Shown here piece after piece: positions 2,788 to 60,170 of a stretch of 64,000 nt of DNA (its first letter is position 1; each line of letters starts with the position of its first letter). Under the pieces are notes generated by a model. The model was given only the letters and a program-made list of their open reading frames with translations, did not search any database and had not been told where the DNA came from. The translations under genes were made by a program, and so were the position numbers. The DNA is from Saprospiraceae bacterium (GTDB lineage: Bacteria > Bacteroidota > Bacteroidia > Chitinophagales > Saprospiraceae), in NCBI GenBank assembly GCA_019187225.1, contig JABAQQ010000033.1:1875-65874 (forward strand). Reading direction: 5' to 3'.

Positions 2788-3402
2788 TTATTGCTTCTTT
2801 CCCCTGAAATAACAGGTCTGATTCGAGTACAGTGTGCCCCATTGTTGCATCCTAAACATACTGTCGGCTTTAAAACTTAAAGCGTAAAAGCGGTAACTGC
2901 CGAAGTAGGGATGCGGAAAACTGCCGCTGGAGTCAACCAGCACTTCGTCGTCGCCTACGTGCAAATAATTCGCCTGTTTGCCATAGTCCACTGTTATGGT
3001 CATGTCCTGGTCCGGGATCGTCTGTGTAAAATTCTGGGCGGTGCAATCGCGGTAGCCCTTGTAATTGCCGACGAATGCGGCGCGGAAATCCGCCGTGATG
3101 TTCACCTCGAAGCTGCAGGATTCCTTGTTGCCGCAATCGTCGTCGGCCTCGTACCGGAGGGTGTTGACGCCGGCTTTCAGTTCCGTATCGGCCCGAAGTA
3201 CGGCCGCGACCCCGCCGTCTTCGCAGGTAGTGGACACTGTCGCTTGTGGCAGCATGAGGGAGGCAGCGGAGACCGGTACGGCCGGTACGGTGATCGCCAG
3301 GTCGGCCGGACAGGAGAGGAATATGTCCCCCTTGGTTTTACACGAATAAAAACAAAGAATGGCGGCAAACAAGGCAGCGGAAGGGAAAAGGATGTTTTTC
3401 AT
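2788..3402 (-). CDS. Putative lipoprotein with HYR-like domain
   Basis: The 204-residue product starts with a lipoprotein signal (MKNILFPS...CFYSCKT, acylated Cys about residue 20). This start is chosen because the upstream in-frame ATG would bury the signal. Residues about 25-105 resemble a hyalin (HYR) domain: CPADLAITVP, LMLPQATV, DGG and a paired-cysteine stretch DDCGNKESCSFEVNI. The C-terminal 95 residues are beta-rich and unrecognised. An outer-membrane surface lipoprotein is likely. It stands alone between remnants of mobile elements. Confidence 0.7.
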   Translation of the reverse strand: MKNILFPSAALFAAILCFYSCKTKGDIFLSCPADLAITVPAVPVSAASLMLPQATVSTTCEDGGVAAVLRADTELKAGVNTLRYEADDDCGNKESCSFEVNITADFRAAFVGNYKGYRDCTAQNFTQTIPDQDMTITVDYGKQANYLHVGDDEVLVDSSGSFPHPYFGSYRFYALSFKADSMFRMQQWGTLYSNQTCYFRGKKQ

Positions 3403-3497
3403 GGTATATATTTTTGATTCAAAAATAACAGACCCGGGTGGCAATAGCATGTCAGAAACAGGGATTTGTCTGGAATTTTCTAAAAAAAATACCCATT

Positions 3498-3596
3498 TCA
3501 ATCAGGCCCTAATTGGCAAGGCCTGAATGTTGTTCCTGTAGGATCTTTGAAGCCGTCCCATTCTGCCACCACCAGCTGGGAGCCGCTAAAGTTTTT
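3498..3596 (-). pseudogene. Possible C-terminal protein remnant
   Basis: An open frame with no start codon ends in TGA at 3498-3500 and encodes a peptide containing FSGSQLVVAEWDGFKDPTG. It reads like the end of a secreted protein and is cut at its 5' side by an inverted repeat. I do not recognise a family; chance coding is possible. Confidence 0.25.
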
Positions 3597-3690
3597 AAAT
3601 GGTGTATTTCAAATTCTCGTTCAAGTTATCTGATCGATAATATGAAATACACCATTTTGCCGTTGTTGGCGTCCTCGCCAACAACGGCAA
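3597..3690. repeat. Two adjoining perfect inverted repeats
   Basis: A 15-bp pair, AAATGGTGTATTTCA (3597-3611) and TGAAATACACCATTT (3643-3657), abuts a tight hairpin with a perfect 15-bp stem TTGCCGTTGTTGGCG and loop TCCT (3657-3690). Neither has a clear T-tract on the plus strand. They could be a mobile-element end or a terminator relic. Confidence 0.6.
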
Positions 3691-3731
3691 AAAAGACAGC
3701 GACCCGCTGACCTACAACTACGCCACTCATT

Positions 3732-4433
3732 CCGCCCTGCTTGGTGTTGTCACCAAGCAGACGTACCCCGAGCGGCCAGGCTTACAGGGGCGGCGGCCAG
3801 TCCTCGCCATACCAAAAATGTGTCAAGAACGACCAACGCATATCGGCAGAGTGATAAAAGGCGGCAGAAGACCAGGCATAATCCTCCGGCTTGGCGGCCA
3901 ACTGCCATTTGGGCTGGACGGGATTGAGATGGATGTAGTCTATCTTTTGTAATACTACCTCGTCGGTGAACAGTGGAACCGACAATGGGCGTTCTTTGAA
4001 AAATTGGTAGTTCCGGTCATTTCGTTCGACTTTGAAATGCTCCAACACTTTCGGGTGGTGGTCGGGCAGGTCGAACCTGATTTGTTGGGCGACAAATTTC
4101 ATCAGGCGCAGTTGGATGCGCGAAAGTGTCTGATTCCCAATCAATTGCCAGACTAAATGAAAATGATTGGGCATGATAACAAAAGCGTAAACATTTACCG
4201 ACTTTTCCCGCACCAGGTATGCCAGCGATTCGGCGATGATGCGTTTATATTTGTCCAGGCGGAGCAAGTGTTTCCAGTCCCTCACCGTGGCGGGAGTGAA
4301 GTACAAGTCGGTGTACCGCTGCTGCAGATTGCCGGGGTATATGAGGATGGATAAATTTCTTGTGGACAAAGATAAATGGTAAGGCAAAGTCGGTGGGTAC
4401 GTGTCTGCTTGGTGACAACACCAAGCAGGGCGG
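3732..4433. mobile_element. RAYT/REP element, copy 2 (complete)
   Basis: About 702 bp carries 31-bp perfect terminal inverted repeats (starting CCGCCCTGCTTGGTG), each itself a hairpin with a 10-bp stem and a TTGT/ACAA loop. One intact transposase gene fills the element. The structure fits REP-associated tyrosine transposases flanked by REP hairpins. Confidence 0.8.
3782..4369 (-). CDS. REP-associated tyrosine transposase (RAYT, Y1_Tnp/IS200-like)
   Basis: The 195-residue single-strand transposase has the HUH metal site NHFH (H69, H71) in VIMPNHFHLVW and the catalytic tyrosine Y145 in DYIHLNPVQP, both diagnostic. A TTG start at 4369 (STRNLSIL...) is chosen because no ATG lies between the terminal repeat and the HUH motif, and an upstream ATG would translate the REP hairpin itself. 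RAYTs are thought to nick and move REP sequences. The gene is intact, so it could act in trans on the derivative at 301-442 and on copy 1. Confidence 0.8.
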   Translation of the reverse strand: MSTRNLSILIYPGNLQQRYTDLYFTPATVRDWKHLLRLDKYKRIIAESLAYLVREKSVNVYAFVIMPNHFHLVWQLIGNQTLSRIQLRLMKFVAQQIRFDLPDHHPKVLEHFKVERNDRNYQFFKERPLSVPLFTDEVVLQKIDYIHLNPVQPKWQLAAKPEDYAWSSAAFYHSADMRWSFLTHFWYGEDWPPPL

Positions 4434-4530
4434 AAACGGCTCCGGGTGTCCGCATTTTTGCCTGTGAGGGCAAAGATGGGCATTATGGATTGCTGAAAGT
4501 TGAGTGGTAAGTTATCTGCTCGCCCCAGGA

Positions 4531-4581
4531 TATTTTCCGCCCTGTCCAGCGTCTTCATCACACCGGGCAGGGTGGAAAAAT
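4531..4581. repeat. Imperfect hairpin downstream of dps
   Basis: TATTTTCCGCCCTG and CAGGGTGGAAAAAT form an imperfect inverted repeat with a 23-base loop, ending 8 bp from the dps stop. On the minus strand it may end dps transcription; the CCGCCCTG core also resembles the RAYT element tips. Confidence 0.35.
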
Positions 4582-4588
4582 TACCTGC

Positions 4589-5068
4589 TCACTTTCTATT
4601 CAAAAACGCCGAATACATCCACACCATTTTTTCCTGCGCCCGGATGTAATCGCTCATCAGGGCGTTGGTGCCCTCATCGCCGGCGTCGGCTGCGAGCGTC
4701 AGCAATTCCCGCTGCAGCGAAATAATCGTCTTAAAAGAGTCCAGGATGTCTTCCACGGCCTTCAAGCCGTCGGACACTTCGGTGCTTTCTTTGATCTTCG
4801 ACATGGTTTTGTAGTCGGAATAGCGGTGCTTCGGCGCATATCCGAGCGTAAGGATCCGCTCTGCTACCTCGTCAATTTTCAGGAGCAGGTCGTTGTACAA
4901 TTCTTCGAATTTCAGGTGGAGTTCGAAGAATTTTTCGCCTTTGATGTTCCAATGATAGCCGCGTGTGTTCTGATAAAAAATGGCGTAGTTCGCCAGCAGC
5001 CCGTTCAGGCTTTCACCCAATTTTTTGGATTTTTTGGCATCTAAGCCGATAGCATTCGTATTTTTCAT
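4589..5068 (-). CDS. dps: Dps-family ferritin-like DNA protection protein
   Basis: The 159-residue protein contains the Dps ferroxidase set at exact family spacing: H39, H51, D66 and E70 (12, 15 and 4 residues apart), in GYHWNIKG...FELHLKFEELY...KIDEVAERI. Dps dodecamers oxidise and store iron and shield DNA from peroxide. The start at 5068 follows a TAnnTTTG box and gives the usual length; a longer upstream frame would run through the promoter. It is transcribed divergently from the porin gene, sharing a 268-bp region with a CRP/FNR-like palindrome. Confidence 0.92.
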   Translation of the reverse strand: MKNTNAIGLDAKKSKKLGESLNGLLANYAIFYQNTRGYHWNIKGEKFFELHLKFEELYNDLLLKIDEVAERILTLGYAPKHRYSDYKTMSKIKESTEVSDGLKAVEDILDSFKTIISLQRELLTLAADAGDEGTNALMSDYIRAQEKMVWMYSAFLNRK

Positions 5069-5093
5069 AATTGCAATTTTTGATTTTATTGTG

Positions 5094-5101
5094 CAAATAT
5101 A
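5094..5101 (-). promoter_or_regulatory. Bacteroidota -7 element for dps (TATATTTG)
   Basis: The minus strand reads TATATTTG 25 bp upstream of the dps start, a perfect TAnnTTTG. No convincing -33 element is visible, which suits activator-dependent expression. Confidence 0.55.
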
Positions 5102-5252
5102 CGGAAGAGGCAAGGTTGTGAATTGCGACAATTGTTACGCAGGGTGCTGATTTTAAACCGGTCGGAAAAAACGGGCGAAGTGGAATATCCCATTTTGTAA
5201 ACCTGATCCGCTGCCGGTTTCCGGATTTTTTATTCAAAAGAGAAAATAGACC

Positions 5253-5268
5253 TGTGATAAATGTCACA
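5253..5268. promoter_or_regulatory. CRP/FNR-family operator-like palindrome
   Basis: TGTGA-TAAATG-TCACA is a perfect match to the CRP-type half sites TGTGA-N6-TCACA. It lies between divergent dps and the porin gene, 69 bp upstream of the porin start. The local regulator is unknown. Confidence 0.55.
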
Positions 5269-5336
5269 AAACACGTGCGACGACGCGTCCGACCTTTGCT
5301 GCGGTATTGGAAAAAGAGAACGACCCAACCGCAAAC

Positions 5337-6749
5337 ATGAAACGTACGATAGTACTCTTGCTGGCAGGTGCATTGCTGGCAGGCGTTTTAAATGCACAAG
5401 TAACACAACCTCCCATGCCGGGTTACGAACCCGCTCAACCCGGTAAAGCCGCCAACCTTCTCGAAGCCTTCCGGAACGGTCATTTTCACGGTCATTTCCG
5501 CACCTATCTGATGGCAACCGATAATGCCCGTCAGTTGCCCGACTACTATGCCTGGGCGGGCGGCGGTGGACTGCATTTCAACTCGGCGCCCTGGCACGGC
5601 TTCAGTTTCGGGATCGGCGGCGTCTTCAATTTCAATCTCGCTTCTTCCGACCTGGGCGCAAAGGATTCCCTCACCGGATCGGTAAACCGCTATGAGATCG
5701 GTTTGTTCGACGTGGAAGACCCCTACAACCGCAACGACCTCGACCGGATGGAAGAATTCTGGCTGCGTTACCAATGGAAGAAGTCGCGCCTCACGGTGGG
5801 GCAGCAATCGCTGCAAACGCCGTTCGTCAATTACCAGGACGGGCGGATGCGGCCTACCGCCGAGGCAGGCGCCTGGGCGGAGTTCAACGAACTGAAAAAC
5901 ACCAAAATTGAAGGAGGCTGGCTCTGGAAGATCTCCCCGCGCAGCACCGTCAAATGGTACGGCATCGGCGAGTCCATCGGTTTGTATCCCAAGGGTCTGA
6001 ACCCCGACGGCACGGGCAGCGGTTATCCGGAAAACCTGGAAAGCGCGGGTATCGGGCTACTGGGTATCACGCGGCGAATCGGTGGCAACACCAAAATTCA
6101 GGTCTGGAATCAGTACGTGGAAAACATTTTCAATACGGCATTCGCCCAGGCTGATTACGTGCATCCGCTTCAAAACGGCCACAAATTGCTGTTCGGGCTT
6201 CAATTTGCCCACCAGAACGCCCTCAAGGATGGGGGCAACGAGGATACATCCAAAACCTATTTTCAGAAAGGCGGGCAGTCCAACGCATTCAGCGCGCAAA
6301 CCGGCTGGCAACAGGGCGGCTGGCAGGCGTTGGCGGCTTATACGCGCGTCACTGCCGACGGGCGTTTTCTGTCGCCCCGCGAATGGGGGCGCGAACCCTT
6401 TTACACCTTCATGCCCCGCGAGCGGGTGGAGGGCAGCGGCGATTCGCATTCCGTCACCGGCCGCCTGAGCTGGCAAAACGAAAACAAAAAACTGCGCTTT
6501 GAAGCAGCTTACGGACATTTTTACCTGCCCGACGTAAAAAACACCGTACTCAGCAAGTACGCTTTTCCGTCCTTTCGGCAGTTCAATCTCGACGCGCGAT
6601 ACACCTTCGGCGGCATGTTCGAGGGCTTGCGGGCGCAGTTTCTCTATGTCTGGAAAGGCCGCATCGGCGAGGTATACGGCAATGACAAGTTTGTCGTCAA
6701 CAAAGTAGACATGTCGCTTTTCAACGTGGTGCTCAACTACACCTATTGA
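5337..6749 (+). CDS. OprD-like outer-membrane porin
   Basis: The 470-residue protein begins with a signal peptide (MKRTIVLLLAGALLAGVLNAQ) and continues as alternating beta-strands ending in the aromatic-tipped NVVLNYTY. Recognisable blocks (HGHFRTYLMAT, LTVGQQSLQTPFVN, GGWLWKISP, DARYTFGGMFEGL) resemble the OprD family of substrate-specific channels. The substrate cannot be read. The start at 5337 is the one that gives a proper signal peptide. An upstream palindrome suggests CRP/FNR control, perhaps coordinated with dps. Confidence 0.75.
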   Translation: MKRTIVLLLAGALLAGVLNAQVTQPPMPGYEPAQPGKAANLLEAFRNGHFHGHFRTYLMATDNARQLPDYYAWAGGGGLHFNSAPWHGFSFGIGGVFNFNLASSDLGAKDSLTGSVNRYEIGLFDVEDPYNRNDLDRMEEFWLRYQWKKSRLTVGQQSLQTPFVNYQDGRMRPTAEAGAWAEFNELKNTKIEGGWLWKISPRSTVKWYGIGESIGLYPKGLNPDGTGSGYPENLESAGIGLLGITRRIGGNTKIQVWNQYVENIFNTAFAQADYVHPLQNGHKLLFGLQFAHQNALKDGGNEDTSKTYFQKGGQSNAFSAQTGWQQGGWQALAAYTRVTADGRFLSPREWGREPFYTFMPRERVEGSGDSHSVTGRLSWQNENKKLRFEAAYGHFYLPDVKNTVLSKYAFPSFRQFNLDARYTFGGMFEGLRAQFLYVWKGRIGEVYGNDKFVVNKVDMSLFNVVLNYTY

Positions 6750-6750
6750 G

Positions 6751-6889
6751 TATTGGGATATTGGGATATTGGGATATTGGGATATTGGGATATTGGGATA
6801 TTGGGATATTGGGATATTGCTTTTGACAACCGTACAGATTAAGTGTGGTATCACAATATCTCAATATCCCAATATCCCAATATCATTTA
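6751..6889. repeat. Octamer tandem repeat with inverted partner
   Basis: From 6751 to about 6820 the unit TTGGGATA repeats about 8-9 times directly after the porin stop. At 6852-6889 the complement (CAATATCCC) repeats 3-4 times, so transcripts could fold into a long hairpin. It separates the porin from the PNP gene and may end porin transcription. Confidence 0.8.
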
Positions 6890-6894
6890 TATCC

Positions 6895-6902
6895 TACATT
6901 TG
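6895..6902 (+). promoter_or_regulatory. Bacteroidota -7 element (TACATTTG)
   Basis: A perfect TAnnTTTG lies 23 bp upstream of the PNP start at 6926. Confidence 0.5.
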
Positions 6903-6925
6903 CCTGCTCAAACAACACATTCTGC

Positions 6926-7747
6926 ATGCCGCTCTACGAAGAAATCCTGGAAGCCGTGGCTTTTATTCGCGCCCAAACCGGTTTCCGTCCGCGCACAGGC
7001 ATTATCCTCGGCACGGGGCTGGGCAACCTGACCGACGACGTGGAAGTGGAAGCCGAAATCGCCTACCGCGACATTCCGCATTTTGCTGTCAGCACCGTGG
7101 AAAGCCACAAAGGGAAGTTGGTTTTCGGCGCCCTCGACGGCCATCCGGTGGTTGTCATGGCCGGGCGTTTTCACTACTACGAAGGCTGGACGATGCAGCA
7201 GGTCACATTTCCCGTTCGGGTGTTGAAATATCTCGGTATTGAAAGGTTGATCATCACGAATGCTTCCGGCGGGGTGAATCCCCACCTGCGCGCAGGCGAC
7301 ATCGTCATCGTGCGCGAACACATCAACCTGTTGCCCGAACATCCCCTGCGGGGCCCCAACGACGAGCGCCTTGGCCCGCGCTTCCCGGATATGTCGCAAA
7401 CGTACGACGCTGACTTGCGGCGAAAGGTGCTGGACATTGCAAAAGCCCATGGCGTCCGGGCGGTCGAAGGCGTGTATTCGGCTTTGCAGGGGCCCAACCT
7501 GGAAACGCCCGCCGAATACGGCATGCTCCGCCGCCTCGGTAGCGACTGCACCGGCATGTCGTCCATCCCCGAAGTATTGGTGGCACGGCACATGGATCTA
7601 CCCGCGATGATGCTTTCACTGGTTACCAACGTAGCCTACCCGCCCGCAGTCATCCGGGAAACGTCTGTGGAAGACGTCATAGCCGCGGCCAGCGCCGCCG
7701 AACCGAAACTGAGCCTGCTGGTCAAAGAATTGCTGAAAAGTCTTTGA
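6926..7747 (+). CDS. Purine nucleoside phosphorylase, trimeric class
   Basis: The 273-residue enzyme would cleave purine (deoxy)nucleosides with phosphate to the free base and (deoxy)ribose-1-phosphate. Family motifs run in order: phosphate loop ILGTGLGNL, RFHYYEGW, TNASGGVNP, the base-binding block GPNLETPAEYGMLRRLGSDCTGMS and TNVAYPP with the purine-contacting Asn. The start at 6926 follows a promoter box; in-frame codons upstream lie in the octamer repeat. It is followed after 32 bp by folA, so both may be cotranscribed as nucleotide-metabolism genes. PNP-I versus MTA phosphorylase cannot be fully separated by eye. Confidence 0.88.
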   Translation: MPLYEEILEAVAFIRAQTGFRPRTGIILGTGLGNLTDDVEVEAEIAYRDIPHFAVSTVESHKGKLVFGALDGHPVVVMAGRFHYYEGWTMQQVTFPVRVLKYLGIERLIITNASGGVNPHLRAGDIVIVREHINLLPEHPLRGPNDERLGPRFPDMSQTYDADLRRKVLDIAKAHGVRAVEGVYSALQGPNLETPAEYGMLRRLGSDCTGMSSIPEVLVARHMDLPAMMLSLVTNVAYPPAVIRETSVEDVIAAASAAEPKLSLLVKELLKSL

Positions 7748-7778
7748 TCGCCCACTGCCACTGCAAACTGCCCACTGA
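7748..7778. repeat. CTGCCCA/CTGCCA-type short repeat
   Basis: The PNP-folA gap consists mainly of CACTGCC/AACTGCCCACTG units, the same motif family as at 27667 and 44505. Confidence 0.5.
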
Positions 7779-7779
7779 A

Positions 7780-8286
7780 ATGCTCGTCTCCGCCATCGTC
7801 GCCACCGCCAAAAACAATGTCATCGGGAAGGACAACCAGATCCCCTGGTACCTGCCTGCCGATCTCGCGTATTTCAAACGCACCACGCTCGAACATCACA
7901 TCATCATGGGCCGCAATTCCTTTCACAGCATCGGACGGCCCCTGCCCAAACGCACCAACATTGTCGTGACCCGCGACCCGTTTTTTCAGGCCGACGGCGT
8001 GTTGGTGGCCCATTCCGTAGAAGAAGCGTTGGGCATGGCTTACGACAATGGCGAGACGGAAGCGTTCATCATCGGCGGCGGGGCGATTTACCGCGAGACG
8101 CGGGACTTGTGGGACAAAATTTACCTCACCGAAGTGGAGCTGGAAGTGGAGGGCGACGTTTTTTTCCCGGAAGTAGACCCTGCCGAATGGCGTGAAACCT
8201 GGCGCGAGCACCACGAGCCCGATGCGAAAAACGAGTGGGCGTACACGTTCCGGATTTTGGAAAGGAAAGAAATCCGGGAGGACTGA
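7780..8286 (+). CDS. folA: Dihydrofolate reductase
   Basis: The 168-residue enzyme reduces dihydrofolate to tetrahydrofolate with NADPH. It shows the DHFR landmarks: SAIVATAKNNVIGKDNQIPWYLPADL (N-terminal strand and active-site W/P/D region), HHIIMGRNSFHSIGRPLPKRTNIVVTR and the glycine pair in AFIIGGGAIYRE. The ATG at 7780 starts MLVSAIV as typical; upstream codons lie in a short repeat. It ends just before a 39-bp perfect palindrome that should terminate it. Confidence 0.93.
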   Translation: MLVSAIVATAKNNVIGKDNQIPWYLPADLAYFKRTTLEHHIIMGRNSFHSIGRPLPKRTNIVVTRDPFFQADGVLVAHSVEEALGMAYDNGETEAFIIGGGAIYRETRDLWDKIYLTEVELEVEGDVFFPEVDPAEWRETWREHHEPDAKNEWAYTFRILERKEIRED

Positions 8287-8327
8287 TGCTTTTTATTCGG
8301 TCTTTACGGTTATTTTATAAATCTGTA

Positions 8328-8410
8328 AGTTCATTGGCAAAAAGGGAGGGGCGAAGTGAAATTTTTCCCGGAAAAATTTCACTTCGCCCCTCCCTTTTTG
8401 CCAATGAACT
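8328..8410. terminator. Very long bidirectional terminator-like palindrome
   Basis: A perfect 39-bp inverted repeat (8328-8366 and 8372-8410) with a 5-base loop CCCGG lies between convergent folA and bamA. The stem contains A- and T-runs, so it can end transcription from both sides. It is far longer than ordinary terminators. Confidence 0.75.
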
Positions 8411-8423
8411 CCCCTGAAAACCA

Positions 8424-10961
8424 CTAATCCGGCTCGAAGCCCAGCACGATGTTGAAGCGGGCGTAATCGGAAAGCTTCCGGCTGCCGGAGTTGATGTATT
8501 GCTGCTTGTCGAAACCGATACCCCAGTCGAATCCGAGCGTGCCGAACATGGGCAGGAACACGCGCAGGCCTACGCCAACCGAACGCCGCAGGTCGAAGGG
8601 ATTGTAATCGCTCACGTTAGCCCATGCATTGCCGCCCTGCGCAAACGTTGTGACGAAGATCGTGCTTTGCGGATTGAGCGAGATCGGATACCGAAGTTCC
8701 ACGGTGTATTTGCTGAAAACCCCTGCACCGCCAGGGAAAGGCTGCATGATGTCTCCGGTGTCGTAGCCGCGCAGACTGATGATATCGCGGCCGTTGAGGC
8801 CGAAGTTTTGGTTGCTGAGACCATCGCCACCCAGTTCGAAGCGCTCGAAGGGGCTGAGCAGGGTCTTGTCCGACCAGCGGGTGAGCAGGCCGATCTTGGC
8901 CGATGTTTTTAACACCAATTTGCCCACCAGGGAGGTATACCATTCCGCATCCACGCGCCATTTCAGGTATTCGATGTAGCGGTAGAGTTCCTGCAGGTTG
9001 GTCGTTTCGTAAAAATTTTCGTCCTTAAACCACGAATAGGGCGGGGTCATCTGCATTTTCACCGACACCAATGAGCCGTTGCGCGGGAAAATGGGGTCGT
9101 TCACGCTGTTGCGTGCCACCGTAAGCGTCAGGTTATAGTTGTTGTAAATGCCGTACGTAATAGAGCGTCCCAGTTCGTCCACAAAACCGCCGTAGTTGTT
9201 GATGTTCAGGCGTTGAATATCCATATCGGCGCGCAGGATGAAGTTGTCGTCGGGCCATTTGAGGCGGGTACCGAAACCAACGGTCACTTGTGCAATGCCG
9301 AGTCGCTGATAGTTGTCCGCGCCTTCGAAGCCGTTGGCAAAGCGGTTGTAAAAACCTGCGACCGTGAGCGAATTGGGTTTTTTACCGCCGAGCCAGGGTT
9401 CGGTGAACGAAACGTTGTACGATTGGTAGCGGTCGCCGGAAGTCTGGCCGCGCAGGCTGAGTCGCTGGCCGTCGCCTTGCGGCAACGGATTCCAGGCTTC
9501 CTTGTTGCTGATATTGCGCAGCGAAAAGTTGTTGAACGTGACGCCGAGCGTGCCGATGACGCCGCCCCGGCTGAACTGCGTGGCGGGCTGGTAACCGGCC
9601 GACAGTTCGAGTTGGTCGGAAGGTTTTTCCTCTACTGTGTACTCGATGTCCACGGTGCCGCGTTCGGGATTCACGGGGGTATTGATGCCGAGGGCTTCGG
9701 GGTTGAAATAGCCGAGGTTGACGATTTCGCGTTGCGAGCGGATGATGTCGGCGCGGCTGAATTTGTCGCCCGGGCGAGTGTAGAGTTCGCGGCGGATGAC
9801 GTGTTCGTGGGTGCGGTCGTTGCCTTTGATGACCACCCGGTCAATGGTGGCCTGCGGGCCTTCGTAGATACGGAGTTCGAGGTCAATCGAGTCGTTCTCG
9901 ATGGCCGTTTCCACAGGGTCTACGCGAAAGAACAGGTAACCGTTGTCGAGGTAGAGCGACGAAATATCGCGCCCGTCCTGGCTGAAAGAGAGGCGGGTAT
10001 CGAGCATTTCCTGGTTATAAACGTCCCCTTTTTTGATTCCCAGCACCTGGTCGAGGTATTTGGTTTCATAAATGGTATTGCCTTTCCAGACGATGTTGCG
10101 GAAGTAATAGCGCCGGCCCTCTTCGATGTCGAGGCGGAGCATCAGTTGGCCCTTGCTGTTGCGCCAGATGCTGTCTTTTGCGATGCGGGCGTCGCGAAAG
10201 CCGATGGTATTGTAGTATTTCTCGATATTGATCTTGTCTTCTTCGTACAGATCGCGCACCCATTTCGATTTTTTGAAAAGGCGGCGCTTTTCCGCCGTTT
10301 CCTTCATTTTTTTGAGCAGTGTACGGGATTTGACGTTGTCATTGCCAACGAACCGGATGTCTTTGATCTTGACGCGACTGCCCTTATCAATGATGAATTC
10401 GAGCCGGGTGGCGTTGACCGATCTTTCATCGGGGTATTGTTTGATGGTCACTTTGGCGTCGAGGAAGCCTTTTTCGAGGTAGTGTTCTTTCAGCGCATTC
10501 ACCAGCGAGGCTCTGACGTTGTCGGTGAGGATGGCTCCTTTTTGCAGATACTTATTGATGATGCCATTCAGGTCGTCGTGCTGATTTTTCCGGACCCCCA
10601 CAAAAGAGTGGCGGGTGTAGCGCGGTAGTTCTTTCACGGCGATTTCCAGAAATATTTTATCGCCGGCGGTACGTTCCTGCAGGATTTGCACATCGGTGAA
10701 CAATTTGAGGCTCCAGAGCGATTGCACCGCTTTGGCGAAAGCGGCGCCGGGCACGCGGACTTTTTCGCCCACACGGAAGCCTGAAATAGCGATGATGGCG
10801 CCTGCGTCGGCGTATTGCGCGCCGGTGACGCGGATGCCGCCGATCTCAAATTCTGCCGGTTTGTCGTACGAAATAACGGGCGGCAAAGTATCGGTCGTTT
10901 GGCCTGCGGCGGCGAAGGGGCCGGAGAGGAGCAGCAGGAGGCCGAGTGTGCGTAATTTCAT
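8424..10961 (-). CDS. bamA: BamA, outer-membrane protein assembly factor (Omp85)
   Basis: This 845-residue protein has a signal peptide (MKLRTLGLLLLLSGPFAAAGQ), about five POTRA repeats (residues about 40-440) and a C-terminal Omp85 barrel (about 450-845). The barrel contains the conserved loop-6 motif LRGYDTGD and RSVGVGLRVFLPMFG near the end. BamA inserts beta-barrel proteins into the outer membrane. ATG 10961 is preferred to a TTG four codons upstream because it begins the signal peptide. It lies 55 bp downstream of the surA-like gene, with a PpiC-like lipoprotein beyond, forming a minus-strand biogenesis cluster. Confidence 0.93.
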   Translation of the reverse strand: MKLRTLGLLLLLSGPFAAAGQTTDTLPPVISYDKPAEFEIGGIRVTGAQYADAGAIIAISGFRVGEKVRVPGAAFAKAVQSLWSLKLFTDVQILQERTAGDKIFLEIAVKELPRYTRHSFVGVRKNQHDDLNGIINKYLQKGAILTDNVRASLVNALKEHYLEKGFLDAKVTIKQYPDERSVNATRLEFIIDKGSRVKIKDIRFVGNDNVKSRTLLKKMKETAEKRRLFKKSKWVRDLYEEDKINIEKYYNTIGFRDARIAKDSIWRNSKGQLMLRLDIEEGRRYYFRNIVWKGNTIYETKYLDQVLGIKKGDVYNQEMLDTRLSFSQDGRDISSLYLDNGYLFFRVDPVETAIENDSIDLELRIYEGPQATIDRVVIKGNDRTHEHVIRRELYTRPGDKFSRADIIRSQREIVNLGYFNPEALGINTPVNPERGTVDIEYTVEEKPSDQLELSAGYQPATQFSRGGVIGTLGVTFNNFSLRNISNKEAWNPLPQGDGQRLSLRGQTSGDRYQSYNVSFTEPWLGGKKPNSLTVAGFYNRFANGFEGADNYQRLGIAQVTVGFGTRLKWPDDNFILRADMDIQRLNINNYGGFVDELGRSITYGIYNNYNLTLTVARNSVNDPIFPRNGSLVSVKMQMTPPYSWFKDENFYETTNLQELYRYIEYLKWRVDAEWYTSLVGKLVLKTSAKIGLLTRWSDKTLLSPFERFELGGDGLSNQNFGLNGRDIISLRGYDTGDIMQPFPGGAGVFSKYTVELRYPISLNPQSTIFVTTFAQGGNAWANVSDYNPFDLRRSVGVGLRVFLPMFGTLGFDWGIGFDKQQYINSGSRKLSDYARFNIVLGFEPD

Positions 10962-53838: not shown

Positions 53839-54366
53839 ATGAAAATAATATTAGAAACACTGCGCCTTATTCTCCGGGAAGTAGAGGAATCGGACCTGGA
53901 AGGCTTTTTTGAAATGGACAGCGACCCGGAAGTGGCGCGCTATGTCGGAGCGCCCCCCGTGCAACACCGGCAGGAAAGTCTCGAAATCATCCGGTTCGTG
54001 CGGAGCCATTATATCCTTTATGGCATGGGCCGGTGGGCAGTGGTGTTGAAGGAAACGGGTGAATTTCTCGGCTGGTGCGGGGTGCGACCCATGCGTGAGA
54101 TGAAGGTGAACGGCCGCACCGATTTTGTGGATATCAGTTTTCGTTTTACGCGCAGGTATTGGGGCAAAGGATATGCAACGGAAGCCGCAAAGGCCGCTCT
54201 GGATTACGGTTTTCAAGTGTTGGGATACACCGAAATTTGTTCGTTTGCCGATATTCGGAACGTGGCTTCGCAGCGGGTGTTGGAAAAAATCGGCTTGAAA
54301 AGAAAAAACGAATTCGAGTTAGAAGGCGACACCCTCGTGTGGTTTGAGAAGAGTTTATTACTCTAA
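53839..54366 (+). CDS. GNAT acetyltransferase, RimJ/RimL type
   Basis: This 175-residue protein has the GNAT acetyl-CoA signature: LETLRLILREVEESDLEGFF at the start, RYWGKGYATEAAKAALDYGF (motif A) and IRNVASQRVLEKIGLKRKNE (motif B). It probably acetylates a small molecule or protein N-terminus. Its ATG is 1 bp after the GMC oxidoreductase stop, so the two are cotranscribed. Confidence 0.92.
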   Translation: MKIILETLRLILREVEESDLEGFFEMDSDPEVARYVGAPPVQHRQESLEIIRFVRSHYILYGMGRWAVVLKETGEFLGWCGVRPMREMKVNGRTDFVDISFRFTRRYWGKGYATEAAKAALDYGFQVLGYTEICSFADIRNVASQRVLEKIGLKRKNEFELEGDTLVWFEKSLLL

Positions 54367-56333: not shown

Positions 56334-57833
56334 ATGGAACATCTCTTTCACATCGAATCCCTCTCCCCGCTCTACGAAGCCGTGCAAACGAGCGGCATCT
56401 TTCCCGACTCCAAATATTTTCCGGATTGTACGCCCAAGTCCAATCCCCCTGCCATTTTAAAAGCGTTTGAGCAGGCCAAAGACGAAGCCGGATTCGATTT
56501 GAAAAAATTCGTGGAAATGCACTTCGATCCTGCACAAACGCCGGAAAGCGAGTATCATTCAGAGCGAAAAACCATTTCAGAACACCTTGATCACCTTTGG
56601 GATGCGCTGCTTCGCAACCCGTCCACCGTCCACCGTCCACCGTCTACCGTTATTCCCCTTCCGCATCCCTACATCGTTCCCGGCGGCCGTTTCCGGGAGA
56701 TTTATTACTGGGACAGTTACTTCACCATGCTCGGCCTCCAGGTGTCAGGTCGCACGGACATCATTCAAAATATGGTGGACAATTTCGCACACCTTATCGA
56801 AACGGTGGGTTTTATTCCGAACGGGAACCGAACTTACTACCTCGGTCGCTCGCAACCGCCGTTTTTTGCCCTGATGGTCAATGTGTTGGCCGAAATAAAA
56901 GGCGAAGCGACGCTGTTGCAATACCGCCGCTCCTTAGAAAAAGAATACGCCTTTTGGATGGCCGGAGAACATGAGTTGACGGCTGAAAATCCTGCGCACC
57001 GCCGCGTCGTCCGCCTGCCCGACGGCACTATCATGAACCGCTATTGGGACGACAATGCTGCGCCGCGCCCGGAGGCATATACAGAAGACCTGCACATCGC
57101 CGAACAATCGGGGCGTGATCCGGCAACAGTCTATCGCCACATCCGGGCCGCTGCCGAATCGGGCTGGGATTTCAGCAGCCGCTGGTTCCGCGACGGACAA
57201 AGAATGGATACAATACAAACCGCTGAAATAGTACCGGTTGACCTGAATTGTCTGTTGTACTACTTAGAAAAAACGCTCGTCCACACGTACCGCCAATTGC
57301 CCGATCACACGCCGGTGGAAGTGATGAAAGACCGTGCCAGGTTGCGCCGGGAAGCCATTCAAAAATACTGCTGGAACGACGCAACAGATTTTTATTTCGA
57401 TTATGATTTTATAGAAAAAAAACACACGGGGCAATGGACGCTTGCAGCGGCCTTCCCGCTTTTTTTCCGGATCGCAGAAAAGGAACAAGCGGAGGAAGTG
57501 GCGCATCACCTCGAAACAAAATTCCTTCAATCCGGCGGTCTTACGACCACCCTTACCCGCTCCGGCCAGCAATGGGATGCCCCGAACGGCTGGGCGCCGC
57601 TGCAATGGATGGCTTTTCAGGGGTTGCGCAATTACGGATTTGATACCTTAGCCCTCGAAATCCGCCGCCGTTGGATGGCTTTGAACGAAAAAACGTACGC
57701 CGCCACCGGGAAAATGATGGAAAAATACAACGTCATGGACCCGGGCGCCAAAGCGGGCGGGGGCGAATATCCCAACCAGGACGGCTTCGGCTGGACGAAC
57801 GGGGTGTATTTAGCGATGAGAGCAAAGGGTTGA
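56334..57833 (+). CDS. treF: Trehalase (GH37)
   Basis: The 499-residue enzyme hydrolyses trehalose to two glucose. Both GH37 signatures are present: PGGRFREIYYWDSYFTMLGL (about residues 117-136) and QWDAPNGWAPLQWMAFQGL (about 415-433), plus SGWDFSSRWF and GGGGEYPNQDGFGW-like end (AGGGEYPNQDGFGWTNGV). No signal peptide, so cytoplasmic (TreF-like). ATG 56334 follows the MFS stop; an upstream ATG inside the MFS gene is less likely. Residues about 95-105 (NPSTVHRPPSTV) are encoded by a heptamer repeat also found between genes. Confidence 0.92.
   Translation: MEHLFHIESLSPLYEAVQTSGIFPDSKYFPDCTPKSNPPAILKAFEQAKDEAGFDLKKFVEMHFDPAQTPESEYHSERKTISEHLDHLWDALLRNPSTVHRPPSTVIPLPHPYIVPGGRFREIYYWDSYFTMLGLQVSGRTDIIQNMVDNFAHLIETVGFIPNGNRTYYLGRSQPPFFALMVNVLAEIKGEATLLQYRRSLEKEYAFWMAGEHELTAENPAHRRVVRLPDGTIMNRYWDDNAAPRPEAYTEDLHIAEQSGRDPATVYRHIRAAAESGWDFSSRWFRDGQRMDTIQTAEIVPVDLNCLLYYLEKTLVHTYRQLPDHTPVEVMKDRARLRREAIQKYCWNDATDFYFDYDFIEKKHTGQWTLAAAFPLFFRIAEKEQAEEVAHHLETKFLQSGGLTTTLTRSGQQWDAPNGWAPLQWMAFQGLRNYGFDTLALEIRRRWMALNEKTYAATGKMMEKYNVMDPGAKAGGGEYPNQDGFGWTNGVYLAMRAKG
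56619..56650. repeat. CCGTCYA heptamer repeat inside the trehalase gene
   Basis: Four units, CCGTCCA (three times) and CCGTCTA, plus CCGT lie in frame within the trehalase coding sequence. The encoded STVHRPPSTV sits in the variable loop just before the first GH37 signature, where insertions are tolerable. Confidence 0.85.
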
Positions 57834-57867
57834 TGCAACTATCTAACAGGAAATTGATTCAAAATCT

Positions 57868-57875
57868 TACTTTTG
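57868..57875 (+). promoter_or_regulatory. Bacteroidota -7 element (TACTTTTG)
   Basis: A perfect TAnnTTTG lies 13 bp upstream of the ATPase start, so the pair has its own promoter despite following trehalase by 55 bp. Confidence 0.55.
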
Positions 57876-57888
57876 TCGAAAAAATGGA

Positions 57889-58935
57889 ATGGTTAAAGGG
57901 CTAAAATTGACAGACTTTACTTGTTTTGGCGATGTTTCGTTGGATTTTTGCTCCGGCATTAACGTATTCATCGGAGCAAATGCAACAGGTAAAACTCACC
58001 TGCTCAAACTGGTTGCTGCTTGTTTAAAAGCCGGTGAAGAATTGACTAATGGAGCGTTGATGAGCAGGGAACGAGCAGAGGCTATTCTTTCCTCTAAATT
58101 ATTGGGATATTTTCGCCCGGAAAGAATGGGGCGGCTTGTGCGCAGAAAACAAGGTAGAACCCGCAGCGAAGTAAAAATTAAGATTCAAGGAAGCACTGCC
58201 CTGCAATTCAACTTTGCAACTAACTCACAAAATGTCAAAATTGAAAACTTTCAGGGGTTACCTAAACTAGCTTCTTTGTATTTGCCACCGCGAGAAATGC
58301 TCAGCTTATATGAAGGGTTTATCAGCCTTTATGAAGGGCGGGAAGTCGCTTTCGATGAAACATATTACCAGTTGGCTAAGGCACTTAATTCACCATTATT
58401 GCGAGGTGCGCGCCTTAGCGAGATTAAAGATTTGGTGGAGCCTATCGAAGTCGAAACAGGTGTTCGCATTGTTAGGGAATCTGAAAGATTTTATTTAAAA
58501 GAAGCCGGCGACAAATTAGAAATGCATCTTGTTGCAGAAGGAATGAGAAAAATTGCCACTATTATCTATTTACTTACCAATGGAAAATTATCTAAAAACA
58601 CAGTGCTTTTTTGGGACGAACCAGAAGCCAATCTCAATCCTCGTCTTGTTAGAGTTGTCGCTAAATTGCTTCGACAATTGGCTGACAGTAAGATACAGAT
58701 ATTTATTGCGACCCACGATTTTCTGCTGACCCATTATCTCTCCCTTTTTCAAGAATACGCGGAAACCCCAAAACCAGAACTACGTTTTTTCAGTCTGCAA
58801 AAGGATGAAGAACAGGGAATTGTTATTGAGCAGGGAGAGACGCTCGCCGCACTTCAAAATAATTTAATTTTGGATGAATTTGCTATGTATCATGATTTGG
58901 AACAAGCATATTTCAATCAAGCCTTAACTCATTGA
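57889..58935 (+). CDS. AAA_15/AAA_21 (SMC/OLD-like) ATPase, first gene of an ATPase-nuclease pair
   Basis: This 348-residue ABC-type ATPase has Walker A GANATGKT (residues 29-36), a signature-like helix LVAEGMRKIA (about 214-223), Walker B VLFWDEPEANLNP (D243, E244) and the H-loop IATHDF (H276). The conserved LPPREMLSLYEGFISLYEGR lies in the middle. There is no Toprim or nuclease domain of its own. The downstream gene encodes a PD-(D/E)xK protein and starts 4 bp after this stop. The pair is AT-rich against GC-rich neighbours. Paired ATPase and nuclease genes recall phage-defence systems such as PARIS, Septu or Gabija, but this combination is none of those by domain content. Confidence 0.85.
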   Translation: MVKGLKLTDFTCFGDVSLDFCSGINVFIGANATGKTHLLKLVAACLKAGEELTNGALMSRERAEAILSSKLLGYFRPERMGRLVRRKQGRTRSEVKIKIQGSTALQFNFATNSQNVKIENFQGLPKLASLYLPPREMLSLYEGFISLYEGREVAFDETYYQLAKALNSPLLRGARLSEIKDLVEPIEVETGVRIVRESERFYLKEAGDKLEMHLVAEGMRKIATIIYLLTNGKLSKNTVLFWDEPEANLNPRLVRVVAKLLRQLADSKIQIFIATHDFLLTHYLSLFQEYAETPKPELRFFSLQKDEEQGIVIEQGETLAALQNNLILDEFAMYHDLEQAYFNQALTH

Positions 58936-58939
58936 CAAA

Positions 58940-59503
58940 ATGGAATTCGTGGAAAGCAATCTTCGTTTTTTATTCGATGAAGCGCATTGGCGAGTCACTC
59001 AATATGACGCCGAGAAAGGTTTTTATCGCGATAAAATATTGAAATCCGTGCCGGGAACAGAAGCGATTGATTTTATTGGTATTTATAAAAACCGTGAACT
59101 GGCCTTATTCGAGGTGAAAAACTTGCGCGGCTATCGCATTCAAAATGCGCCTCGATTGGCGAATGGAGCAGAAGAATTGACTCTTGAAATTGCCCGAAAA
59201 GTGCGGGATACGATGGCAGGTTTCGTGGGCGGAAATCGCAATGACATTCGTGAAAGTGAGTTTTGGAAAGACACAGCTAACCTACTCACAAACCCCAAGA
59301 GAGAAATTTTTATCATCGCTTGGGTTGAAGAAGATATGCTCTCTTCTTATAATAGTAAAGAAATTAAAAGAATCAAGACCGTGCGAGCCAGCAAATTGAA
59401 ACAGAAATTGCATTGGCTTACATCGCGTGTTTCTTTTCAAAATGTTAGTGACTACACTCTTTCTTTTGAAGGATTCAATTGCCAATTTATTGCCGGTAGT
59501 TGA
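58940..59503 (+). CDS. PD-(D/E)xK nuclease-fold partner of the ATPase
   Basis: The 187-residue protein has a nuclease-like core: G39, D44 in TEAIDFIGIYKN, then E58 and K60 in LALFEVKNLRGYR, i.e. the D...ExK arrangement with normal spacing. A following helix (EELTLEIARKVRDTMAGFVGG) and a strand (EIFIIAWVEEDM) fit the fold. It lacks recognisable DNA-binding or membrane segments. The 4-bp gap to the ATPase stop indicates a coupled operon. Family not recognised; a DNase effector gated by the ATPase is the natural inference. Confidence 0.72.
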   Translation: MEFVESNLRFLFDEAHWRVTQYDAEKGFYRDKILKSVPGTEAIDFIGIYKNRELALFEVKNLRGYRIQNAPRLANGAEELTLEIARKVRDTMAGFVGGNRNDIRESEFWKDTANLLTNPKREIFIIAWVEEDMLSSYNSKEIKRIKTVRASKLKQKLHWLTSRVSFQNVSDYTLSFEGFNCQFIAGS

Positions 59504-59534
59504 TTCTGTTAAAACAATTCAAGTCATATCAATT

Positions 59535-60170
59535 ATGAAACGCCGCGACTTACTTAAAAACGCAGGACTTACCACCCTCGGACTCGCCGGTCTCAGCCCG
59601 CAGGTAAAAGCAGCCGAATGGCTCGACCCGCTCGTGCCCGAAAGTGAAAAAGGCGATAAGGACTTCGAGCAATTCGGCCGCACCGACTACGAAAAAGAGC
59701 GCGACGCCAGACTGTTCAAAGAAGTGTTTTTCAACAAACACGAAGTGAAAACCATCGGCGTGCTGGCCGACATCATCATACCCAAAGATGACCGCTCTGG
59801 CTCGGCCACCGAGGCCGGCGTGGTGGACTTCATCGAGTTCATGGCGAAAGACAAACCCGAATTGCAAACGCCCCTGCGCGGCGGACTCACCTGGCTCGAC
59901 ACGCAGGCCAACCGACGCTTTGAGAAAAAATTCGTGGATTGTTCAAGTGCCCAACAAATTGAGATCGTGGAAGATATCGCTTATCCGCAGCGCAAAAAAC
60001 CAGGCATGAGCCAGGGTGTTGCCTTCTTTTCCCTGATGCGCAACCTCACCGCCAGCGCCTTCTGGTCGAGCCAGACCGGGCTGGCCGATTTGGGGTATAT
60101 GGGCAATACGCCGAATCAATGGACGGGCGTGCCGGCGGAGGTGCTGAAGCAGTACGGTTTGGATAAATAA
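59535..60170 (+). CDS. Gluconate 2-dehydrogenase subunit 3-like protein (TAT-exported)
   Basis: The 211-residue protein begins with a TAT-like leader (MKRRDLLKNAGLTTLGLAGL) and matches Gluconate_2-dh3: ADIIIPKDDRSGSATEAGVVDFIEF (the conserved DxxxPxdxxxGA-x-aGv-x-fid), LTWLDTQANRRF and FFSLMRNLTASAFWSSQ. It acts as the small subunit of membrane sugar dehydrogenases whose catalytic subunit is a GMC oxidoreductase. That gene is at 52089, separated by unrelated and AT-rich genes. ATG 59535 starts the leader and lies 31 bp after the nuclease gene. Confidence 0.85.
   Translation: MKRRDLLKNAGLTTLGLAGLSPQVKAAEWLDPLVPESEKGDKDFEQFGRTDYEKERDARLFKEVFFNKHEVKTIGVLADIIIPKDDRSGSATEAGVVDFIEFMAKDKPELQTPLRGGLTWLDTQANRRFEKKFVDCSSAQQIEIVEDIAYPQRKKPGMSQGVAFFSLMRNLTASAFWSSQTGLADLGYMGNTPNQWTGVPAEVLKQYGLDK

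Follow-up and report, generated by a model that had tools for sequence, protein, structure and literature searches.

A discrete two-gene ATPase-nuclease insert in a Saprospiraceae genome that matches the candidate anti-phage family HEC-02

Two adjacent genes of a Saprospiraceae bacterium, encoding an ATPase and a putative nuclease, raise the question of whether they form an anti-phage system and, if so, whether this system is one still to be described, as an earlier note on the same DNA had proposed. We considered the pair (genes A and B, Table 1) within the window, that is, the whole stretch of 64,000 nucleotides that was analysed. Both open reading frames are intact, with 4 bp between the stop of A and the start of B, and they are as AT-rich as had been claimed: the pair has a GC content of 0.406, compared with 0.525 in the whole window, 0.530 in the trehalase gene and 0.555 in the downstream gene, and a GC as low is found in 2.2% of the 1615-bp stretches of the window. 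The flanking genes, read earlier as a trehalase and the small subunit of a sugar dehydrogenase, match the Pfam families trehalase (7.3e-148) and gluconate 2-dehydrogenase subunit 3 (8.1e-32). The earlier note had also given the pair a promoter of its own. The box TACTTTTG does exist upstream of A and is, by the consensus that we assume, a Bacteroidota -7 box, yet the window contains 40 copies of the motif TAnnTTTG where 33.45 are expected, and 19 of 100 shuffles contain at least as many; as this is not significantly above chance, a separate promoter for the pair is at best a possibility. Moreover, with what we take to be the usual spacing, this box would leave A a leader of only a few bases.

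Table 1. Features of the locus, in window coordinates
Feature	Position	Strand	Basis or remark
HEC-02 ATPase gene A (348 aa, ABC/OLD-type, AAA_21/AAA_15)	57889..58935	+	PADLOC HEC-02A, Pfam, model
HEC-02 nuclease partner gene B (187 aa, predicted PD-(D/E)xK-like, D44...E58-x-K60)	58940..59503	+	PADLOC HEC-02B, model
Inserted segment with the pair	57808..59499	.	blastn of the window against G036 and G031
TACTTTTG, possible Bacteroidota -7 box	57868..57875	+	indistinguishable from chance

The pair is present as a discrete insert. Using blastn, we compared the window with a related genome, G036, in which 68 bases replace the 1692 bases of the inserted segment and the matched ends of the trehalase and dehydrogenase subunit genes are 90 bases apart. 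In the window, then, the two genes do sit as a discrete unit, as cargo would. This empty site rests on G036 because, in the other genomes that have both flanking genes, the matches lie on different contigs. In a second genome, G031 (L110, contig 101), the trehalase and dehydrogenase subunit genes are separated by a 550-base slot occupied by a GNAT acetyltransferase gene, which has a relative, by a kinship judged by eye, at positions 53839-54366 of the window. No repeats of at least 14 nt were found in positions 57600-59900, and no integrase in the slot that holds the pair. Across 42 genomes of the genus, A was found at 1e-25 in three, namely the window's own and two with divergent copies (29-31% identity) that are followed by small ORFs carrying E-x-K or D-x-K. 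This distribution bears on the possibility that the pair is a cellular ATPase-nuclease of DNA repair or other housekeeping rather than of defence. The metabolic genes that flank it and the Rad50/RecF-like character of A would fit such a role, but 39 of the 42 genus genomes have no A at 1e-25, the site is empty in G036, the GC content is atypical and, on one plasmid, the pair lies inside a BREX cluster (see below), which together make a housekeeping role very improbable.

The pair is not an undescribed system, contrary to what the earlier note had proposed, as both proteins fall under a named PADLOC family, HEC-02. The top match of A is the HEC-02A profile PDLC04213 (1.4e-92), nearly full length over residues 1-336, and its matches to the ATPase profiles of HEC-02A and HEC-02B have values of 1.4e-92, 5.7e-90 and 8.5e-65; its best PADLOC family outside HEC-02 is AriA, at 4.6e-22. 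B matches the HEC-02B profile PDLC04228 (1.2e-23) and PDLC04145, labelled HEC-02A (1.9e-16). Since A and B both match HEC-02 as adjacent genes and nearly over their full length, the pair already has a name, and on sequence grounds it almost certainly belongs to this candidate anti-phage family. HEC stands for Hma-embedded candidate (PADLOC-DB 2.0.0); the defining preprint (10.1101/2024.01.29.577857) is cited in PMC12988326, the passages of which that we consulted report several HECs as active in assays and name HEC-06. A phage assay of any HEC-02 system was not found in the open-access literature and passages searched. The window's pair differs in its surroundings, for it stands alone among metabolic genes, and the PADLOC scan of the 43 other ORFs of the window found neither an Hma cluster nor any other defence cluster around it. 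This does not exclude membership, because embedding was the route by which the family was discovered and is not part of the profiles. As a side observation, the HEC-02A and HEC-02B labels of PDLC04145 and PDLC04146 look swapped, since the ATPase matches 04213 and 04214 (A) together with 04146 (B), and the nuclease 04228 (B) together with 04145 (A).

The residues that had been singled out in the two proteins are all present and conserved in relatives. In A, the Walker A motif GANATGKT occupies residues 29-36, and N31, G34, K35, D243, E244 and H276 show no variation in an alignment of 48 A proteins, which comprises the window's own and 47 from the 80 relatives described below. In Pfam, A matches AAA_21 (1e-19) as well as AAA_15, and the PDB folds that Foldseek places closest to its predicted structure (pLDDT 93.4) are Rad50, PtuA from Septu and retron complexes, and SMC heads, with E about 1e-13.

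For B, we aligned 68 proteins, the window's own and 67 of the 76 copies from relatives, nine short or weak copies being excluded; D44 is kept in 67 of them, E58 in 68 and K60 in 67, and over all 77 copies the same residues are found in 73, 73 and 72, the remainder being mostly gaps. The predicted structure (pLDDT 92.1) has a helix at 28-36, a strand at 45-49 with D44 just before it, a strand at 53-61 containing E58 and K60, a long helix at 70-100 (K87), a strand at 123-130 (E130) and a helix at 139-156. This order of elements agrees with the core topology of the PD-(D/E)xK superfamily and, according to model and alignment, the conserved D and E-x-K sit at the strand positions of that fold. Foldseek gave no match under E 0.001 among 405 PDB matches, nor in viral models; the top PDB matches were SfsA (E 0.012) and BstEII (0.25), presumably both members of the superfamily, and lower-ranked ones included Avs3, MUS81-EME1, MspJI and XPF along with unrelated folds (Rag GTPases, CD38). 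In Pfam, the window's B matches DUF6661 at 8.8e-6, with 26.1 bits where the cut-off is 27, and it matches NERD at E 0.11. At E<=0.01, all 68 B proteins match HEC-02B, 16 match DUF6661, six NERD and three a pPIWI_RE-associated restriction-fold family; in ten relatives inspected, the NERD and pPIWI_RE matches, with scores below the family cut-offs, begin before or at the region of D44 and span the E-x-K. The PD-(D/E)xK fold claimed earlier for the second protein is compatible with this well-scored model, which has no significant structural match; it is the motif, its conservation and the succession of elements, together with the weak profile matches, that indicate that B is probably a PD-(D/E)xK-like nuclease.

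Operons of the type 'OLD-ABC ATPase + Novel REase' are reportedly treated in Krishnan et al. 2020. Among published systems of a related kind, including operons that couple OLD-ABC ATPases with restriction-fold enzymes, we compared the pair with WonAB by its published description: in both, a gene for an ABC/OLD-type ATPase precedes one for a PD-(D/E)xK nuclease, and the motifs are of the same kinds. Operons of an OLD-ABC ATPase with a 'Novel REase' are mentioned in the consulted passages of PMC12137116 and PMC12409358, and those of PMC12839542 describe OLD-ABC ATPases with PD-(D/E)XK or other nucleases inside BREX, such couplings having been described earlier. According to the passages of PMC12137116 on which we draw, WonAB is a two-gene operon of which both genes are needed, mutants of the ATPase and of the nuclease being inactive; it aborts infection after phage DNA replication has begun, with translation inhibited and genomic DNA undegraded, and its authors regard it as part of a broader family in which ABC-ATPase sensors are joined to nuclease effectors. 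A difference lies in WonA, which has C-terminal extensions predicted to dock WonB. If the mutated residues K34, E300 and H333 of WonA are, as we read them, the counterparts of K35, E244 and H276 of A, then A is about 57 residues shorter between Walker A and Walker B, a figure derived from the residue numbers in that paper.

Other systems share parts of this plan. Septu (PtuAB) has the ATPase fold of A (Foldseek 6.3e-14 to PtuA); PtuA partners an HNH nuclease, whereas the window's B has D...E-x-K in its place. PD-T4-4 is likewise an operon of an ATPase and a PD-(D/E)xK nuclease, and membership in it was rejected, as A matches PD-T4-4_A over residues 203-278 only (1.4e-11, far under HEC-02) and a search of B at E<=1 gave no PD-T4-4_B. 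PARIS (AriAB) also has an AAA_21/AAA_15-type ATPase, AriA, the family already named as the best of A outside HEC-02; AriB is described as a Toprim nuclease in the part of PMC12839542 consulted, and B, which matches HEC-02 and weakly DUF6661, matches no AriB or Toprim family, so that PARIS too was set aside. With Menshen (NsnABC), A aligns to NsnB over residues 1-305 (2.9e-13) and B weakly to NsnC (0.003). Menshen includes a DUF262 gene that is required for defence, according to the passages seen of PMC10952713, and membership was rejected, there being no DUF262 among the scanned neighbours of the pair (trehalase, gluconate dehydrogenase subunit 3, a Uma2-like protein, GNAT and a secreted protein) and no Nsn family in the 43 other ORFs of the window at 1e-15. 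A search with the NsnC profile gave no match in 392 genomes and none in 14 control genomes either, and is therefore uninformative.

The earlier note had treated the two genes as one unit, and their co-occurrence across genomes agrees with this. When species genomes of bacteria and archaea from many phyla were scanned, 505 relatives of A were obtained, the best 80 of which, from Bacteroidota, Myxococcota, Verrucomicrobiota, Planctomycetota, Chloroflexota, Pseudomonadota and others, were used for the pairing counts. In 73 of these 80, A is immediately followed by a homologue of B (E<=1e-5), with -7 to 231 nt from the stop of A to the first aligned base of B. Of the remaining seven, two show a weaker B match at that position (1.9e-4), one has a fragment resembling B, another is truncated by a contig end, and three have no B; in one of these three, A is followed by a protein that, judged from its sequence, is like a type I specificity subunit. 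The B profile used for this count was built from the very loci counted, and the search of 392 genomes of the phylum provides an independent check: it found B in ten genomes at E<=1e-5, adjoining A in nine of the ten. From the side of A, the phylum has 24 A-like places at E<=1e-40, in 17 genomes, 9 with an adjoining B at 1e-5 and 15 without. Eight of these 15 were inspected downstream; in four of them B is matched weakly (4e-6 to 5e-9), a fifth shows a small ORF that bears E-A-K and has no profile match, and three lack any B, one of them with a stop inside A and another near a contig end. As distant A genes often precede a small E-x-K protein that the B profile picks up poorly or not at all, the pairing seems, from the eight of 15 places inspected, to be wider than the profile detects. 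The distance matrices of A and B co-vary (45 pairs, Mantel r 0.75, with 0.23 as the highest value in 2000 permutations), which argues for joint inheritance and not for contact, since shared descent of whole operons gives the same result.

Some individual copies may be recorded here. G219 (L127, 5449-6027) carries an orphan HEC-02B-like protein of 192 aa that keeps the E-x-K; its gene lies behind a leucyl-tRNA synthetase gene, the end of which it overlaps by 4 bases, and there is no A match within the stretch. The Candidatus Thiomargarita nelsonii genome (L032) has ten HEC-02B matches at E<=1e-5. Two short unannotated faecal contigs labelled 'Bacteriophage sp.', L163 (MT839135.1) and L162 (MT837741.1), carry the ATPase; one of them has B too (8.3e-39) and the other has no B at E<=1e-3.

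The window itself is not a defence island: at 1e-15, PADLOC finds among its 43 other ORFs the single-gene candidate PDC-S01, one HNH (9.2e-17) and one ZorB (2e-16). The PDC-S01 match (1.5e-84) is an AAA_14/DUF4143 ATPase at 501-1667, 56 kb from the pair. To survey other loci, we took 19 HEC-02 loci and 19 control stretches and scanned the ORFs of at least 150 aa that overlap positions 3000-10600; from an initial 25 loci, L049, L058, L060, L065 and L078 (contigs under 90 kb) and L030 had been excluded. At E<=1e-25, 49 PADLOC families were found among 89 ORFs around the HEC-02 loci versus 6 among 91 control ORFs; as the scan yields families, 25 of the 49 being listed, we give no count of defence proteins. 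These 25 include HmaB, type I and type III methylases, a type III restriction enzyme, a CBASS cyclase, NsnC and HEC-08, and the Pfam families of the same neighbours are mostly metabolic among the 25 of 90 listed. In the control stretches, four members match mad3 and four match ABC_tran, and given these ABC_tran matches beside mad3 they are probably plain ABC transporters. An association with defence genes is seen at some loci and plasmids and not in the window, where the pair is alone.

Among 72,556 plasmid records, six carry A, five of them with a B-like ORF behind it (four by profile) and one without B. On the Polaromonas plasmid pPNAP01, the pair lies inside a BREX-2 cluster, between pglX and pglZ; on Paracoccus p7 it is about 5 kb from a type ISP restriction enzyme; on Sulfuricystis pSTJ2, A without B adjoins an N-6 DNA methylase. 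Plasmid carriage would suit a role in toxin-antitoxin action or element maintenance, B being the toxin and A its ATP-dependent antitoxin, as would the small two-gene operon and the Pfam description of AAA_21 as a putative AbiEii toxin domain. We consider this unlikely, as these six plasmid records compare with 505 relatives of A in species genomes and as overproduction of WonB is harmless without WonA (in the consulted part of PMC12137116), which rules out simple sequestration for WonAB. The position inside BREX and beside a DNA methylase, the Rad50-like fold of A and the weak NERD and pPIWI_RE similarity of some B proteins would suit a restriction-like module aimed at DNA, in which A would recognise foreign or broken DNA in the manner of Rad50 and B would cut the invader, the cell not being shut down. 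This is a serious, though less probable, alternative, as WonAB, a tested system of the same kind, spared genomic DNA and halted translation, and no methylase belongs to the window's pair.

The best explanation, to which we give a probability of about 0.7, is that the pair is a HEC-02 module, a compact anti-phage system made of an ABC/OLD-type ATPase sensor and a PD-(D/E)xK nuclease effector; an anti-phage function as such is likely. The two profile matches, the adjacency and co-variation of A and B, the ATPase fold, the patchy presence, the defence genes near plasmid copies, the neighbour scan and the example of WonAB all support this explanation; against it count the metabolic neighbours and the lack of a defence island in the window, the lack of a fold match for B, the orphan B in G219, the places where A has no B, and the plasmid without B. 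The reading given earlier thus holds in part, as a conserved, inserted ATPase-nuclease pair that is probably anti-phage, and fails as to the novelty of the system. By analogy with WonAB, the likeliest role would be that of an ATPase-gated nuclease shutting down infected cells. A would dimerise around ATP, bind B and keep it inactive or short-lived; infection by phage would generate a signal, be it DNA ends, a phage protein or a replication intermediate, that alters the ATP state of A; B would then cleave nucleic acid and the infected cell would be stopped before phage are made, as with WonAB. Whether B would act on RNA or on DNA appears about evenly balanced. A more specific idea, which we offer as tentative and rather doubtful, is that the WonAB-like class has in HEC-02 its compact and widespread core, a minimal gated RNA-cutter (of tRNA or rRNA) that aborts infection, travels as a bare cassette of 1.7 kb lacking both integrase and flanking repeats, and is often used outside defence islands.

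The locus offers a copy of this candidate defence system that is clean and isolated, and a relative in which the site is empty allows a comparison. Since WonB hints at such an activity, a restriction-fold enzyme with a possible ability to stop translation deserves attention, and HEC-02, if the reading of residue counts is true, is shorter than WonAB and could reveal the minimal working unit. At the other end of the window, a stretch of about 540 nt is duplicated at 1845-2391 and 3730-4277 (96-98% identical, 1.9 kb apart), covering ORFs without a Pfam match at 1e-5, and positions 1-239 contain two tRNA-Lys genes (51-126 and 164-239) in a perfect 113-nt tandem repeat.
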